A stretch of DNA of 64,000 nt from Spirochaeta lutea (lineage in GTDB: Bacteria; Spirochaetota; Spirochaetia; DSM-27196; Salinispiraceae): NCBI RefSeq assembly GCF_000758165.1, contig NZ_JNUP01000064.1, positions 1 through 64,000 of the forward strand, written 5' to 3'. The position numbers were made by a program, and so were the translations under genes. Shown piece after piece: positions 14,223 through 18,491 of this stretch. Numbering within the stretch: the first letter of the stretch is position 1; every line of letters starts with the position of its first letter. The notes beneath the pieces are model-generated. The model saw only the letters and a program-made list of their open reading frames with translations, was not told the origin of the DNA and made no database searches.

Positions 14223-15470
14223 ATGACAACACATATTCTTGTGCTTGTCCTCCTGCTCGCACTCTCCGCATTCTTTTCCGGGACGGAAACGGCATTCACC
14301 AGCCTTTCTATGATTCAAATACAGCAAATCAAAAAACGGTACCGTAATCGCGGTGCCCTCATTGAACGGCTTCACAACCAGGCGGATACCCTTCTGGCCA
14401 CGGTTCTCATCGGCAACAACCTGGTGAATATCGGAATGTCGGTGATCTCCTCGGAATTAACCATCCGTCTCTTCGGCTCCACGGCCCTGGGCATTACCAC
14501 CGGCGTGCTTACCATGGCCATCCTGGTGTTTGGCGAGATCATTCCGAAACAAACCGCCATCTTAAATAACGCCTTTATTTGTATCCATACCGTGCGGATT
14601 ATCTACCTGCTCTCCATTATATTTCGGCCCCTCATCTGGCTGCTCTCGGGTCTCAGCAGGATCATCTCCCGCCTCAGCCCGAAAAATCCCCGGACTCACC
14701 TTACCCTGGACGGAATTCTACACATGGTAAAACACGCCGAAAATATCGGCATATTGGAGAACTACCGCACCAGGATGGTGAAGAGCATTTTCCGGTTCAA
14801 CGATGTAAGCGTCCATGCCATCATGACCCACCGGACCAAGGTGTTCAGTCTTCCCGCCTCTCTACCCATTTCCGAGGCCCTGCCCCTAATCACCGAGGCA
14901 GGATATTCCCGGATTCCAGTGTTTGGAAGGGATCAAGAGCAGATCTTGGGTATCGTATTGGAAAAGGAAGTAATCCGCGCCCTTAATGAGCCTGAAACCA
15001 CCCTAAAGGATCTCATGATGCCCCCGGTGGTGGTGCCGGAAAGCTGGAAAATCCACCGGGTCTTTACCAAGCTCAAGGCTGAGCGGCTTAATCTTGCCAT
15101 CGTACTGGATGAATACGGGGGATTAGCCGGGGTCGTTACCATGGAGGATCTGGTTGAGGAGATTATCGGCGAACTCTACGATGAGAATGAAGAGAAGGAG
15201 GGCAGCCGGGTAACCCGGAATGCCAGCGGTTGGTATACCATCCAGGGTGACACCCCCCTCCATGTCCTGGAAGATATTGTCGGCATAGAGTTTCCTCACG
15301 ACCGTTCCATCGAAACCATCGGCGGATACCTGGCCGACCTGGCTGAGGAACTCCCGAATCCGGGAACCTCGATACCCACTGATGCGGGTACATTTATCAT
15401 CGACCGGATCAGCCGGAAGCAGATCCTCTCGGTCCGATTCCGCCCCGGTACTGATGCCGATGAGACATAA
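14223..15470 (+). CDS. HlyC/CorC (CNNM-CBS) family membrane protein
   Basis: 415 residues. A DUF21/CNNM transmembrane domain (~1-180: LVLVLLLALSAFFSGTETAFTSLS, LVNIGMSVISSELTIRL, FGEIIPKQTAIL) precedes a CBS pair (~200-325: IMTHRTKVFSLPAS...GYSRIPVFG; IVLDEYGGLAGVVTMEDLVEEIIGE) and a CorC_HlyC domain (~335-412: YTIQGDTPLHVLEDIVG). The family exports Mg2+/Co2+ or regulates divalent cations, with CBS domains binding adenine nucleotides. GGGAG precedes the ATG. I see no partner gene; leuS lies downstream beyond an independent RNA gene. Confidence 0.92.
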   Translation: MTTHILVLVLLLALSAFFSGTETAFTSLSMIQIQQIKKRYRNRGALIERLHNQADTLLATVLIGNNLVNIGMSVISSELTIRLFGSTALGITTGVLTMAILVFGEIIPKQTAILNNAFICIHTVRIIYLLSIIFRPLIWLLSGLSRIISRLSPKNPRTHLTLDGILHMVKHAENIGILENYRTRMVKSIFRFNDVSVHAIMTHRTKVFSLPASLPISEALPLITEAGYSRIPVFGRDQEQILGIVLEKEVIRALNEPETTLKDLMMPPVVVPESWKIHRVFTKLKAERLNLAIVLDEYGGLAGVVTMEDLVEEIIGELYDENEEKEGSRVTRNASGWYTIQGDTPLHVLEDIVGIEFPHDRSIETIGGYLADLAEELPNPGTSIPTDAGTFIIDRISRKQILSVRFRPGTDADET

Positions 15471-15629: not shown

Positions 15630-15659
15630 TTGACAAAAAACTGGGTCATAGATTATATT
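15630..15659 (+). promoter_or_regulatory. Promoter of the leuS-upstream small RNA
   Basis: TTGACA (15630-15635), 18-base spacer, TATATT (15654-15659); predicted start near 15666. The upstream stretch 15604-15629 is T-rich with a second TTGACA. No gene is visible in 15471-15629. Confidence 0.75.
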
Positions 15660-15736
15660 ACGCGCCGTTAGGACTTCTTCATTTAAAAAACTGTTCATTG
15701 TTTTTGTAACCGTACATCACATTGATTGTTTCCTAC

Positions 15737-15811
15737 ATGAACAGACTCGTTGCGATGGCTCGCATTGAGCTGCAACAAACCTCCTTTTTGTGTATCCGGC
15801 CTTGCCGTTGA
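15737..15811 (+). other. Possible 24-codon leader ORF inside the RNA candidate
   Basis: ATG to TGA, encoding a 24-residue peptide starting [10 protein letters not shown] and ending CIRPCR, with Leu at positions 4, 12 and 18. No ribosome site precedes it and the ATG lies in the 8-pair stem. It could be a leucine-sensing leader peptide for attenuation before leuS, or chance. The Leu codons are not clustered, so I hold this weakly. Confidence 0.2.
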
Positions 15812-15842
15812 GCAGTGGCTAGGGCCGGTATGTTTGACGATT

Positions 15843-15879
15843 CCCCTCGGGTTTACCTCCTTTCCCGAGGGGTTTTTTT
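15843..15879 (+). terminator. Strong intrinsic terminator with an ACCTCCTTT loop
   Basis: CCCCTCGGG / CCCGAGGGG 9-pair perfect stem, 12-base loop TTTACCTCCTTT, and seven T. It ends the RNA candidate 71 bases before leuS. Confidence 0.96.
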
Positions 15880-15914: not shown

Positions 15915-15943
15915 TTGACGGTTCCTTGCCCCTGGGCTACTAT
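15915..15943 (+). promoter_or_regulatory. leuS promoter, predicted leaderless
   Basis: TTGACG (15915-15920), 17-base spacer, TACTAT (15938-15943), only 7 bases before the ATG at 15951. No Shine-Dalgarno is present, so the mRNA should begin at or next to the start codon. Confidence 0.68.
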
Positions 15944-15950
15944 TCCTGCC

Positions 15951-18491
15951 ATGAGTAAATATCCATTTCATGACATCGAACGTAAATGGCAGGCAAGGTG
16001 GGAACGAGAACAAACCTTTGCCGTATCGGAAGATCCCTCGGTTCCTAAAGCAAAGCGGAAGTATGTTCTCGATATGTTTCCCTATCCCAGCGGAGCCGGA
16101 CTGCATGTGGGTCATCCCGAGGGCTACACTGCTACCGATATTTACTGCCGCTACCTTCGAATGACGGGTCATCAGGTTCTGCATCCCATGGGTTTTGACT
16201 CCTTCGGCCTTCCTGCCGAAAACTATGCCATTAAAACGGGTACCCATCCCAAAATCACCACAGAACAAAACATCAATAAATTCCGGGAACAGATTAAACG
16301 CCTGGGGTTCTCCTACGACTGGAACCGGGAGATTTCGACCCATTCCTCGGACTACTATAAGTGGACCCAGTGGATTTTTCTCCAGCTCTATAAGAAGGGC
16401 CTGGCCTATGTGGCTGAAATTCCGGTTTGGTACTGTGAGGCTCTGGGAACGGTTCTTGCGAATGAGGAGGTGATTCAGAGCCCCGAGGGTCCCCGAAGTG
16501 AGATCGGCGGACATCCCGTGGTTCGGAAACCTCTGCGGCAATGGATGCTCAAGATCACCGAATACGCTGAACGCTTGCTTTCGGGTCTGGATGATTTGGA
16601 CTGGCCGGAGTCTATTAAGGCAATGCAGCGCAATTGGATCGGAAAATCAGAGGGCGCGAACGTACGCTTTCCCCTGGCGGATAATCCCGAGACGGGGATT
16701 GAGATTTACACTACCCGCCCGGATACCCTCTTCGGCGCCACCTACATGGTCCTGGCCCCGGAACACCCCCTGGTTCAGGAGATTACAACCCCGGAGCAGA
16801 AGAAGGAGATCGATGGGTACATCCAGCGGGCTGCACTTAAAAGCGATTTGGAGCGGACCGAGTTATCCAAGGAAAAAACCGGCGCCTTCACCGGAGCCTA
16901 TGCGATTAATCCCGTAAACGAGGCAAGGATTCCCATCTGGATTTCTGATTACATCTTGATTTCCTACGGTACCGGAGCAATCATGGCCGTACCGGCCCAT
17001 GACGAGCGGGACTTTGAGTTTGCCCAGCGCTTCAACCTGGAGATTATCAAGGTGGTCGCCGATCCCCAGGATCCCGATGCCGCCCTGGTTGAGGCCTTTA
17101 CCGATACGGGGATCAGCGTAAACTCCGGGCAGTTCTCCGGAAAACCCACCGAAACAGCCAAGGAAGAGATCATTCAATGGTTGGAGCAGGAGAAGATCGG
17201 ATCCCGGGCGGTGAACTATAAGCTCCGCGACTGGATATTCAGCCGCCAACGGTATTGGGGAGAACCGATCCCCCTGGTTATCGGCGAAGACGGAGATATA
17301 CAGCCCGTGGCCGAAGAGAACCTGCCCTTAACCCTACCGGAGGTGCAGAGTTACAAGCCCGCCGGCACCGGCGAGAGTCCCCTGGCAACGGTAACGGATT
17401 GGGTGCAAACCATGATGCCCGACGGTTCCGGGCGCCCGGGAAAACGGGAAACGAACACCATGCCCCAGTGGGCCGGCAGCTGCTGGTACTACCTGCGGTA
17501 CCTAGACCCCAATAATCAGGATGTCTTCGCCGCCCGGGACAAGATTGACTATTGGATGCCCGTCGATTTGTATGTCGGGGGTGCGGAGCATGCGGTGCTC
17601 CATCTGCTGTATGCACGGTTCTGGCACAAGGTGCTTTTCGATATTGGGGTGGTGAACACTGATGAACCCTTTATGCGCCTGGTAAACCAGGGCATGATCA
17701 CCTCCTACGCCTTCCAGCGGGGAGACGGCACCCTGGTGCCCACCGATGAGGTATCCGAAACCTCCCCGGATCAGTGGATCGAGACGGCTACGGGCAAACC
17801 CGTCGAGCGGGTTATAGCCAAGATGTCCAAGAGCCTGAAAAACGTTATCAATCCCGATGAGATTATCGAACAGTACGGTGCCGACAGCATGCGCCTCTAC
17901 GAGATGTTCATGGGCCCGCTCCGGCAGTCGAAACCCTGGAGCACCCAGGGCCTCATCGGAATCCACCGATTTCTGGACAGGATCTGGCGGCTCAGCGAGA
18001 GGCCGGTAACCCATGAACCCTCCCCCGCGGAGCTTCAAAAGGTACTGCATAAGACCATTAAAAAGGTAGGCGAAGATACCGCCAACCTGGACTTTAATAC
18101 CGCCATCAGTCAGATGATGATCTTCATCAATGAGGCGTTTAAGACTGAATCTCTCCACCGGGACGCTTGGGAACCCTTTGTTCTGGTATTAGCCCCCTAT
18201 GCCCCCCATCTGGCGGAAGAATTGTGGGAGCGCCTGGGTCATACCGAGAGCTTGGCCTACCACCCCTTCCCGGAATACCAGGAAGAGCTTACCAAGGACG
18301 ATCAGGTAACCCTGGTACTCCAGGTTAACGGGAAGGTCCGCAGCAAGGTAGAGATAGCCGCCGGTACCCCGAAGGAAGAACTTGAACCCCTGGCCCTGGC
18401 CCACGAGCGGGTTCAGGAATATACTACGGGAAAGACCGTCGTAAAGGTGATTACTGTTCCGGATAAATTGGTGAATGTGGTGGTGCGGTAA
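15951..18491 (+). CDS. leuS: Leucyl-tRNA synthetase
   Basis: 846 residues, class I synthetase of bacterial LeuRS length. The HIGH motif is HVGH (52-55, in [15 protein letters not shown]) and KMSKS is at 624-628. Between them lie the editing (CP1) domain with [19 protein letters not shown] and the [19 protein letters not shown] segment; the C-terminal [14 protein letters not shown] domain closes the protein. It charges tRNA-Leu. The open frame continues upstream to 15750, but those residues are translation of the RNA terminator region; [13 protein letters not shown] is the family N-terminus and fits the promoter. Confidence 0.98.

Follow-up and report, generated by a model that had tools for sequence, protein, structure and literature searches.

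What does the DNA between a tlyC-like gene and leuS encode in this part of the Spirochaeta lutea genome, given that ~214 bases there lack a normal gene and twice carry the complement of a Shine-Dalgarno (SD) sequence? The locus lies in a window of 64 kb (the whole stretch of DNA that was analysed), and we compared it with genomes of the same family, order, class and phylum. Our reading, which we hold at a probability of about 0.7, is that positions 15666-15879 specify a trans-acting, Hfq-independent small RNA (sRNA) that represses by pairing with SD sequences and belongs to an unnamed family widespread in the spirochaete class. The RNA probably shuts off selected messages by masking their ribosome-binding signal.

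The original prediction, made from the window sequence, described a near-consensus promoter, ~214 bases without a normal gene and a perfect 9-pair terminator with an anti-SD motif in its 12-base loop and a second copy upstream, and each of these features was recovered here (Table 1). The promoter, TTGACA-18 nt-TATATT, ranked first among the 12 promoter-like sites that a scan of 12 kb turned up, and in the sister genus the RNA (L003) is likewise preceded by TTGACA..TATATT. The fold of the RNA scored z = -4.8 relative to shuffles, and its terminator reads CCCCTCGGG / TTTACCTCCTTT / CCCGAGGGG, nine perfect pairs enclosing the loop, followed by seven Ts. In the 64-kb window there are exactly two copies of the motif ACCTCCTTT, 76 nt apart on the + strand and both inside the RNA, against a chance expectation of 0.67 per whole window. 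Since GGATCACCTCCTTTCT forms the end of this genome's 16S rRNA, the motif is the anti-SD, and on this point too the prediction was right. Both copies are predicted to be accessible, with mean unpaired probabilities of 0.82 (aSD-1) and 0.997 (aSD-2). A coding function was considered and rejected, as the only + strand open-reading frames (ORFs) starting inside the region are of 23 and 29 aa; a long TTG ORF from 15750 is the leuS reading frame extended upstream of the conserved leuS start.

Table 1 Features of the small RNA locus and its neighbours (positions in the window).
Feature	Position	Strand	Evidence
Upstream neighbour, TlyC/CNNM-like CBS-domain protein gene (presumed product)	14223..15470	+	Conserved 5' of the RNA across the order
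Predicted sigma-70-type promoter of the RNA, TTGACA-18-TATATT	15630..15659	+	11 of 12 consensus bases; also precedes the sister-genus RNA
Predicted small RNA of ~214 nt, predicted start through the T run	15666..15879	+	Promoter and terminator positions, fold, orthologues between tlyC and leuS
5' module GACTTCTTCAT, complement of ATGAAGAAGTC (start codon + Lys-Lys)	15672..15682	+	In the RNA of 4 of 4 family genomes
CTGTTCA...TGAACAG arms (15691-15697 / 15738-15744)	15691..15744	+	Shared by window, L003 and L004
TGTAAC between the arms	15705-15710	+	Shared by window, L003 and L004; recurs in many class members
Hairpin GTTGC...GCAAC, immediately 5' of aSD-1	15749..15776	+	Compensatory changes, by eye
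aSD-1, anti-SD motif 1, ACCTCCTTT	15779..15787	+	Same place in L003 and L004; recurrent in class; predicted unpaired
Hairpin CCGGCC...GGCCGG between the anti-SD motifs	15797..15828	+	Other paired letters in L003 and L004
Intrinsic terminator, a 9-pair stem with loop TTTACCTCCTTT	15843..15872	+	Perfect stem, covarying in relatives
aSD-2, anti-SD motif 2, ACCTCCTTT in the terminator loop	15855..15863	+	Core constant across the order
Putative separate promoter of leuS, TTGACG-17-TACTAT	15915..15943	+	7 nt before the ATG at 15951
Downstream neighbour leuS, apparently leaderless	15951..18491	+	ATG at 15951

Close relatives retain this architecture in part. A DNA search with the stretch matched 4 of 4 family genomes and 41 of 46 order genomes, mostly in the terminator alone, and the length of the RNA ranges from ~95 to >250 nt. 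Rather than being lost in close relatives, both anti-SD motifs are present in two sister-genus genomes (L003 and L004), 75 and 69 nt apart, and a third genus (L008) has a single one, as CACCTCCTTA. The 11-mer GACTTCTTCAT near the expected 5' end is common to the window and these three loci and is limited to the window's family. Of the two internal hairpins, that at 15749-15776 pairs as GTTGC/GCAAC in the window, GCTGC/GCAGC in L003 and CTGACC/GGTCAG in L004; the covariation of both was judged by eye in these three sequences. The CTGTTCA...TGAACAG arms are invariant, so covariation lends them no support, and in the minimum-energy prediction 15691-15744 is paired otherwise.

In an alignment of 19 distinct terminators 99.4% of cells were paired, with two-sided changes at 7 of 9 pairs, percentages which are biased as the set was picked partly for pairing and ACCTCC and loop lengths were evened by hand; the covariation score of the stem was reached by 0 of 500 shuffles. 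Across the same 19 terminators ACCTCCTT was invariant, so that the stem covaries around a constant loop core. Terminator stems need pairing anyway, and ordinary terminators have no reason to keep a constant loop. The contrast between free stem and fixed loop was also seen in pattern-free DNA and model searches, and given this conservation among relatives the element lies well beyond chance. Extra copies occur in one family (f2: L048, L049, L055-L059), most with a loop ATTT(T/C)ACCTCCTTT(G/C) and, further upstream, a TGTAACC...GGTTGTT(A)T element; several of the copies sit 3' of an msrB-like gene.

Beyond the order, a covariance model of the hairpin at a permissive cut-off (E <= 0.01) matched 142 of 297 class genomes, and 73 of 112 genera had a match. 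These counts are upper bounds, since scores of 25-33 bits are within reach of ordinary GC-rich terminators. Among the class loci fetched, a CCTCC loop was found in 37 of 40 by script, and in L094 by eye, and the weak model matches inspected in the host genome were ordinary terminators whose loops lack CCTCC. In a phylum-wide sample (E <= 1e-4) matches were confined to the class except for five genomes, four with a CCTCCTTT loop (L249 canonical) and one with an ordinary terminator; at the same threshold several complete genomes (family f27, most of f32) gave no hairpin match. Scanning 84,980 species genomes for the exact pattern returned at least 119 matching stretches. Among the matches listed, 111 of 119 stretches form the hairpin and the loops of 110 of these 111 have the ACCTCC core (as tallied; in a few of the 111 the script put the stem out of register), ~40 different stems surround the one loop core, and a second anti-SD copy lies up to ~260 nt upstream in 37 of the 111. 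In the 80 titled rows among the matches listed, the hairpin formers were all spirochaete records except one 'bacterium' MAG, and named carriers include Breznakiella homolactica RmG30 and Sphaerochaeta sp. S2; titled non-formers were Bacteroidales, Opitutales, Prochlorococcus and one 'uncultured bacterium'. Viral copies were sought in 2.9 million viral contigs, where five pattern matches were found and none of the five forms the hairpin. The upstream RNA bodies differ greatly between groups, the terminator and its loop alone being common to all members, and some terminators across the class could be convergent. In many class members the terminator is preceded, at a distance of ~60-150 nt, by a TGTAAC(C)...GTTTA-like element.

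The second motif recurs in the class. In 25 non-redundant class members a linear aSD-1 lies immediately 5' of the terminator. These sites were selected solely for CCTCCTTT, and both the preceding A and the following (fourth) T are invariant; with these unselected flanking bases fixed, the motif in full reads ACCUCCUUUU and is complementary to AAAAGGAGGU. It differs at the tenth base from the 16S tail of this genome (ACCUCCUUUCU), a departure that favours pairing with A-rich SDs over 16S mimicry. A CAU lies within ~7 nt upstream of the linear aSD-1 in 14 of the 25 (counted by eye), typically as UUUUCAU-NN-ACCUCC, the complement of which is an SD and then AUG-AAA. The arrangement of modules within the RNA, 5' CAU and then 3' anti-SD, is the correct one for antiparallel pairing with an SD followed by AUG. 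In L068/L075 and relatives the second motif sits in its own hairpin loop. We tentatively consider a broader version of the main reading, less likely than not to be correct, in which the family would be a generic antisense to translation-initiation regions in Hfq-less bacteria, its anti-SD and CAU modules recognising a category of mRNA. UUUUCAU-NN-ACCUCCUUUU in the class, or GACUUCUUCAU...ACCUCCUUU in the window's family, would be complementary to AAAAGGAGGU...AUGAARAA, and the category might be strong-SD secreted proteins starting Met-Lys-Lys, e.g. transporter binding lipoproteins, and not individual genes.

The same bases bear on an alternative in which the loop pairs with no mRNA and is instead a decoy of the 16S rRNA 3' end, imitating ACCUCCUUUC and titrating a protein or assembly factor that reads this tail (Era, bS21 or a 16S 3'-end nuclease are possible partners). 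In the order to which the window belongs, ACCUCCUUU is followed by the C that 16S also has, making the loop there identical to the 16S tail ACCTCCTTTC, and exact conservation over 9 nt would suit an invariant partner. Against this, the tenth base is U in the Treponema and Sphaerochaeta groups, where this genome's 16S tail has C; it is U in 102 of 111 loops among the matches listed and in 25 of 25 aSD-1 sites, which fits A-rich SD pairing better. Moreover, GAUC is not conserved 5' of ACCUCC, and duplicate copies are found in loops as well as linear stretches. We regard the decoy as unlikely, although it is the alternative that fares best.

Less probable still is that the element is a mere terminator with no function in trans, its loop held constant by common descent or because it terminates well. 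The position of the hairpin closely 3' of a gene at L048, L055 and L059 would agree with this, but the stems vary freely around a constant loop, other model-matching terminators in the same genomes carry unrelated loops, many members have a second copy of the motif outside the terminator, and in the window and the sister genus the RNA has a predicted promoter of its own. The original prediction had itself raised 6S RNA, and a free-standing, strongly folded RNA of ~200 nt in a family whose genomes have no 6S match elsewhere might be that or another spirochaete housekeeping RNA missed by Rfam. Here the search was negative: the 6S model (RF00013), which matched E. coli and B. subtilis controls, gave nothing in four family genomes with E relaxed to 1. 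The length of the RNA also varies (above), and its conservation is greatest in a terminator loop and not in a promoter-like internal bubble, leaving this identity very improbable.

The genomic neighbourhood bears on the last alternative. The upstream gene is one whose product we take, by recognition of its sequence, to be a TlyC/CNNM-like CBS-domain protein, and the order tlyC-like gene, RNA element, leuS is kept in the family and most of the order. The leuS gene has a promoter of its own downstream of the RNA terminator and looks leaderless: among 20 relatives, most (L003, L015, L018, L023, L034 and L054 included) have a -10-like hexamer ~6-9 nt 5' of the leuS start. In families f15 and f35 (L077/L068, L078/L075, L080, L084) a tandem pair of anti-SD-loop hairpins is found upstream of leuS. 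A cis-acting leader controlling leuS (a T-box, riboswitch or the leucine attenuator offered by the original prediction) would account for an RNA that ends in a terminator and lies between tlyC and leuS in most of the order, and before leuS in f15 and f35, but it is the weakest candidate and we set it aside, since the conserved -10 hexamer makes read-through of the terminator needless for leuS, many class members and paralogues of the RNA adjoin genes other than tlyC and leuS, neither a T-box nor any other Rfam match was found in the window or 40 related loci, and the conserved part is an anti-SD loop and neither an antiterminator nor a run of leucine codons.

How, then, might an SD-pairing sRNA act in these bacteria? 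The RNA would be made from its own promoter and ended by its own intrinsic terminator, displaying ACCUCCUUU twice, in a weak loop or junction and again in the terminator loop. Both copies may serve as redundant seeds for the SD AAAGGAGGU of target mRNAs, and in the window's family the 5' module GACUUCUUCAU could extend the pairing to an AUG-AAG-AAG start. Such pairing would keep the 30S subunit off and repress translation without Hfq, for which the Pfam model found no match in 46 of 46 order genomes (positive controls matched). The likely targets would be mRNAs with unusually strong SDs, chiefly those of ABC-transporter substrate-binding lipoproteins.

Strong SDs are few in the host genome. 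For the 8-mer SD AAGGAGGT at 3-8 nt from a following ATG, the counts are 29 in the host genome (G000) versus 13 for the reversed control, and 12 versus 20 in G003, and SD usage in both genomes is weak. A global effect through perfect SDs was tried as an explanation and rejected, the full 9-mer AAAGGAGGT preceding ATG merely 7 times versus 4 in the reversed control. The original prediction had cast the RNA as a global translational regulator that either pairs with ribosome sites or spares leaderless mRNAs; its free-standing RNA with conserved, presumably functional anti-SD motifs is supported, and the global reach and the sparing of leaderless mRNAs stay hypothetical. With strong consensus SDs so scarce, the regulon is more likely to be limited, perhaps to transporter binding proteins, than global.

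The rare AAGGAGGT SD precedes 4 of 21 SBP_bac_1 genes (for substrate-binding proteins, SBPs) of the host genome, with P ~6e-6 when 3200 genes (an assumed number) and ~20 credible SD genes are supposed. Compared with 52 control ORFs, taken from the window with start codons set by a heuristic favouring an SD, GGAGG was commoner in SBP genes (16 of 21 vs. 15 of 52, P = 5e-4), pairing with the anti-SD was stronger (P = 2e-5), as was pairing with the 5' module (P = 0.003), and ATGAAGAAG starts were present in 4 of 21 SBP genes vs. 0 of 52 controls, all in tests devised post hoc, once the data had been seen. Highly expressed secreted proteins are expected to have strong SDs and Lys-rich signal peptides anyway, and the enrichment may be unrelated to the RNA. 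It is suggestive only, with the mRNAs of sugar-ABC-transporter binding proteins as the leading predicted targets. Two apparent ortholog pairs, L282 (G000)/L285 (G003) and L312 (G000)/L289 (G003), have a perfect AAGGAGGT SD in both genera; by eye they are copper-chaperone-like and AccB-like, and are further candidate targets.

If the main reading is right, this group would possess a conserved post-transcriptional regulator in the form of a class-wide RNA whose loop is an exact anti-SD, and it would be a clear case of RNA control over transporter mRNAs where Hfq is not found. As the seed is the complement of the SD, two matters become testable: the selectivity of an RNA able in principle to hit every SD, and whether the RNA shapes SD usage or scarcity in the genome. 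A search of the literature for a spirochaete anti-SD sRNA returned nothing relevant, with no described spirochaete sRNA of this kind in what was searched, and Rfam 15 holds no family for the RNA.

The covariance search with Rfam models proposed in the original prediction gave no significant match to a known housekeeping RNA, and at strict and permissive thresholds no family matched the RNA in the window and 40 related loci; T-box models gave none in the window or order loci. The sole matches at gathering score were to SRP RNA, elsewhere in two related loci, and sub-threshold matches to anti-hemB, LhrC, PyrR and ar14 were weak and far under their cut-offs. For RF02344 (ar14) the window scored 14.8 bits against a cut-off of 58.8; this model gave no gathering match in the window or 20 class loci, and none at E <= 0.5 in 20 order loci. 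For RF00616 (LhrC) the score was 19.5 bits against a cut-off of 110.

The closest parallels are in how the RNAs are built and act. In the alphaproteobacterial, cuckoo-type alpha-r14/NfeR1 sRNAs an ultraconserved anti-SD is repeated in unpaired regions between divergent stems, they are Hfq-independent, and validated targets include periplasmic ABC transporter components silenced at the translation initiation region (PMC10746234). A constant, unpaired anti-SD with divergent stems is a property shared with our RNA and not proof of membership: the host phylum differs, and the alpha-r14/NfeR1 motif is CCUCCUCCC in three hairpins, whereas the spirochaete motif is ACCUCCUUU(U), present once or twice and always in the terminator loop, the window RNA having two ACCUCCUUU motifs only. 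In Listeria, LhrC (LhrC1-5) uses redundant seeds, including the terminator loop, to block the SD of lapB (PMC4132741), with a CUCCC...UUUU seed where the spirochaete RNA has a full anti-SD, and in a different host group. The Firmicutes UCCC-motif sRNAs RsaE, FsrA and SprD block the SD with a C-rich single-stranded seed, as far as they are summarised in PMC4132741; their UCCC seed is short and they show no sequence relation to the spirochaete RNA by Rfam. With scores below the cut-offs of RF02344 and RF00616, we therefore describe the RNA as one that would work like alpha-r14/NfeR1 and LhrC and do not file it as a member of either, and we rate it as an unnamed, putative spirochaete sRNA family whose constant core is the complete anti-SD.
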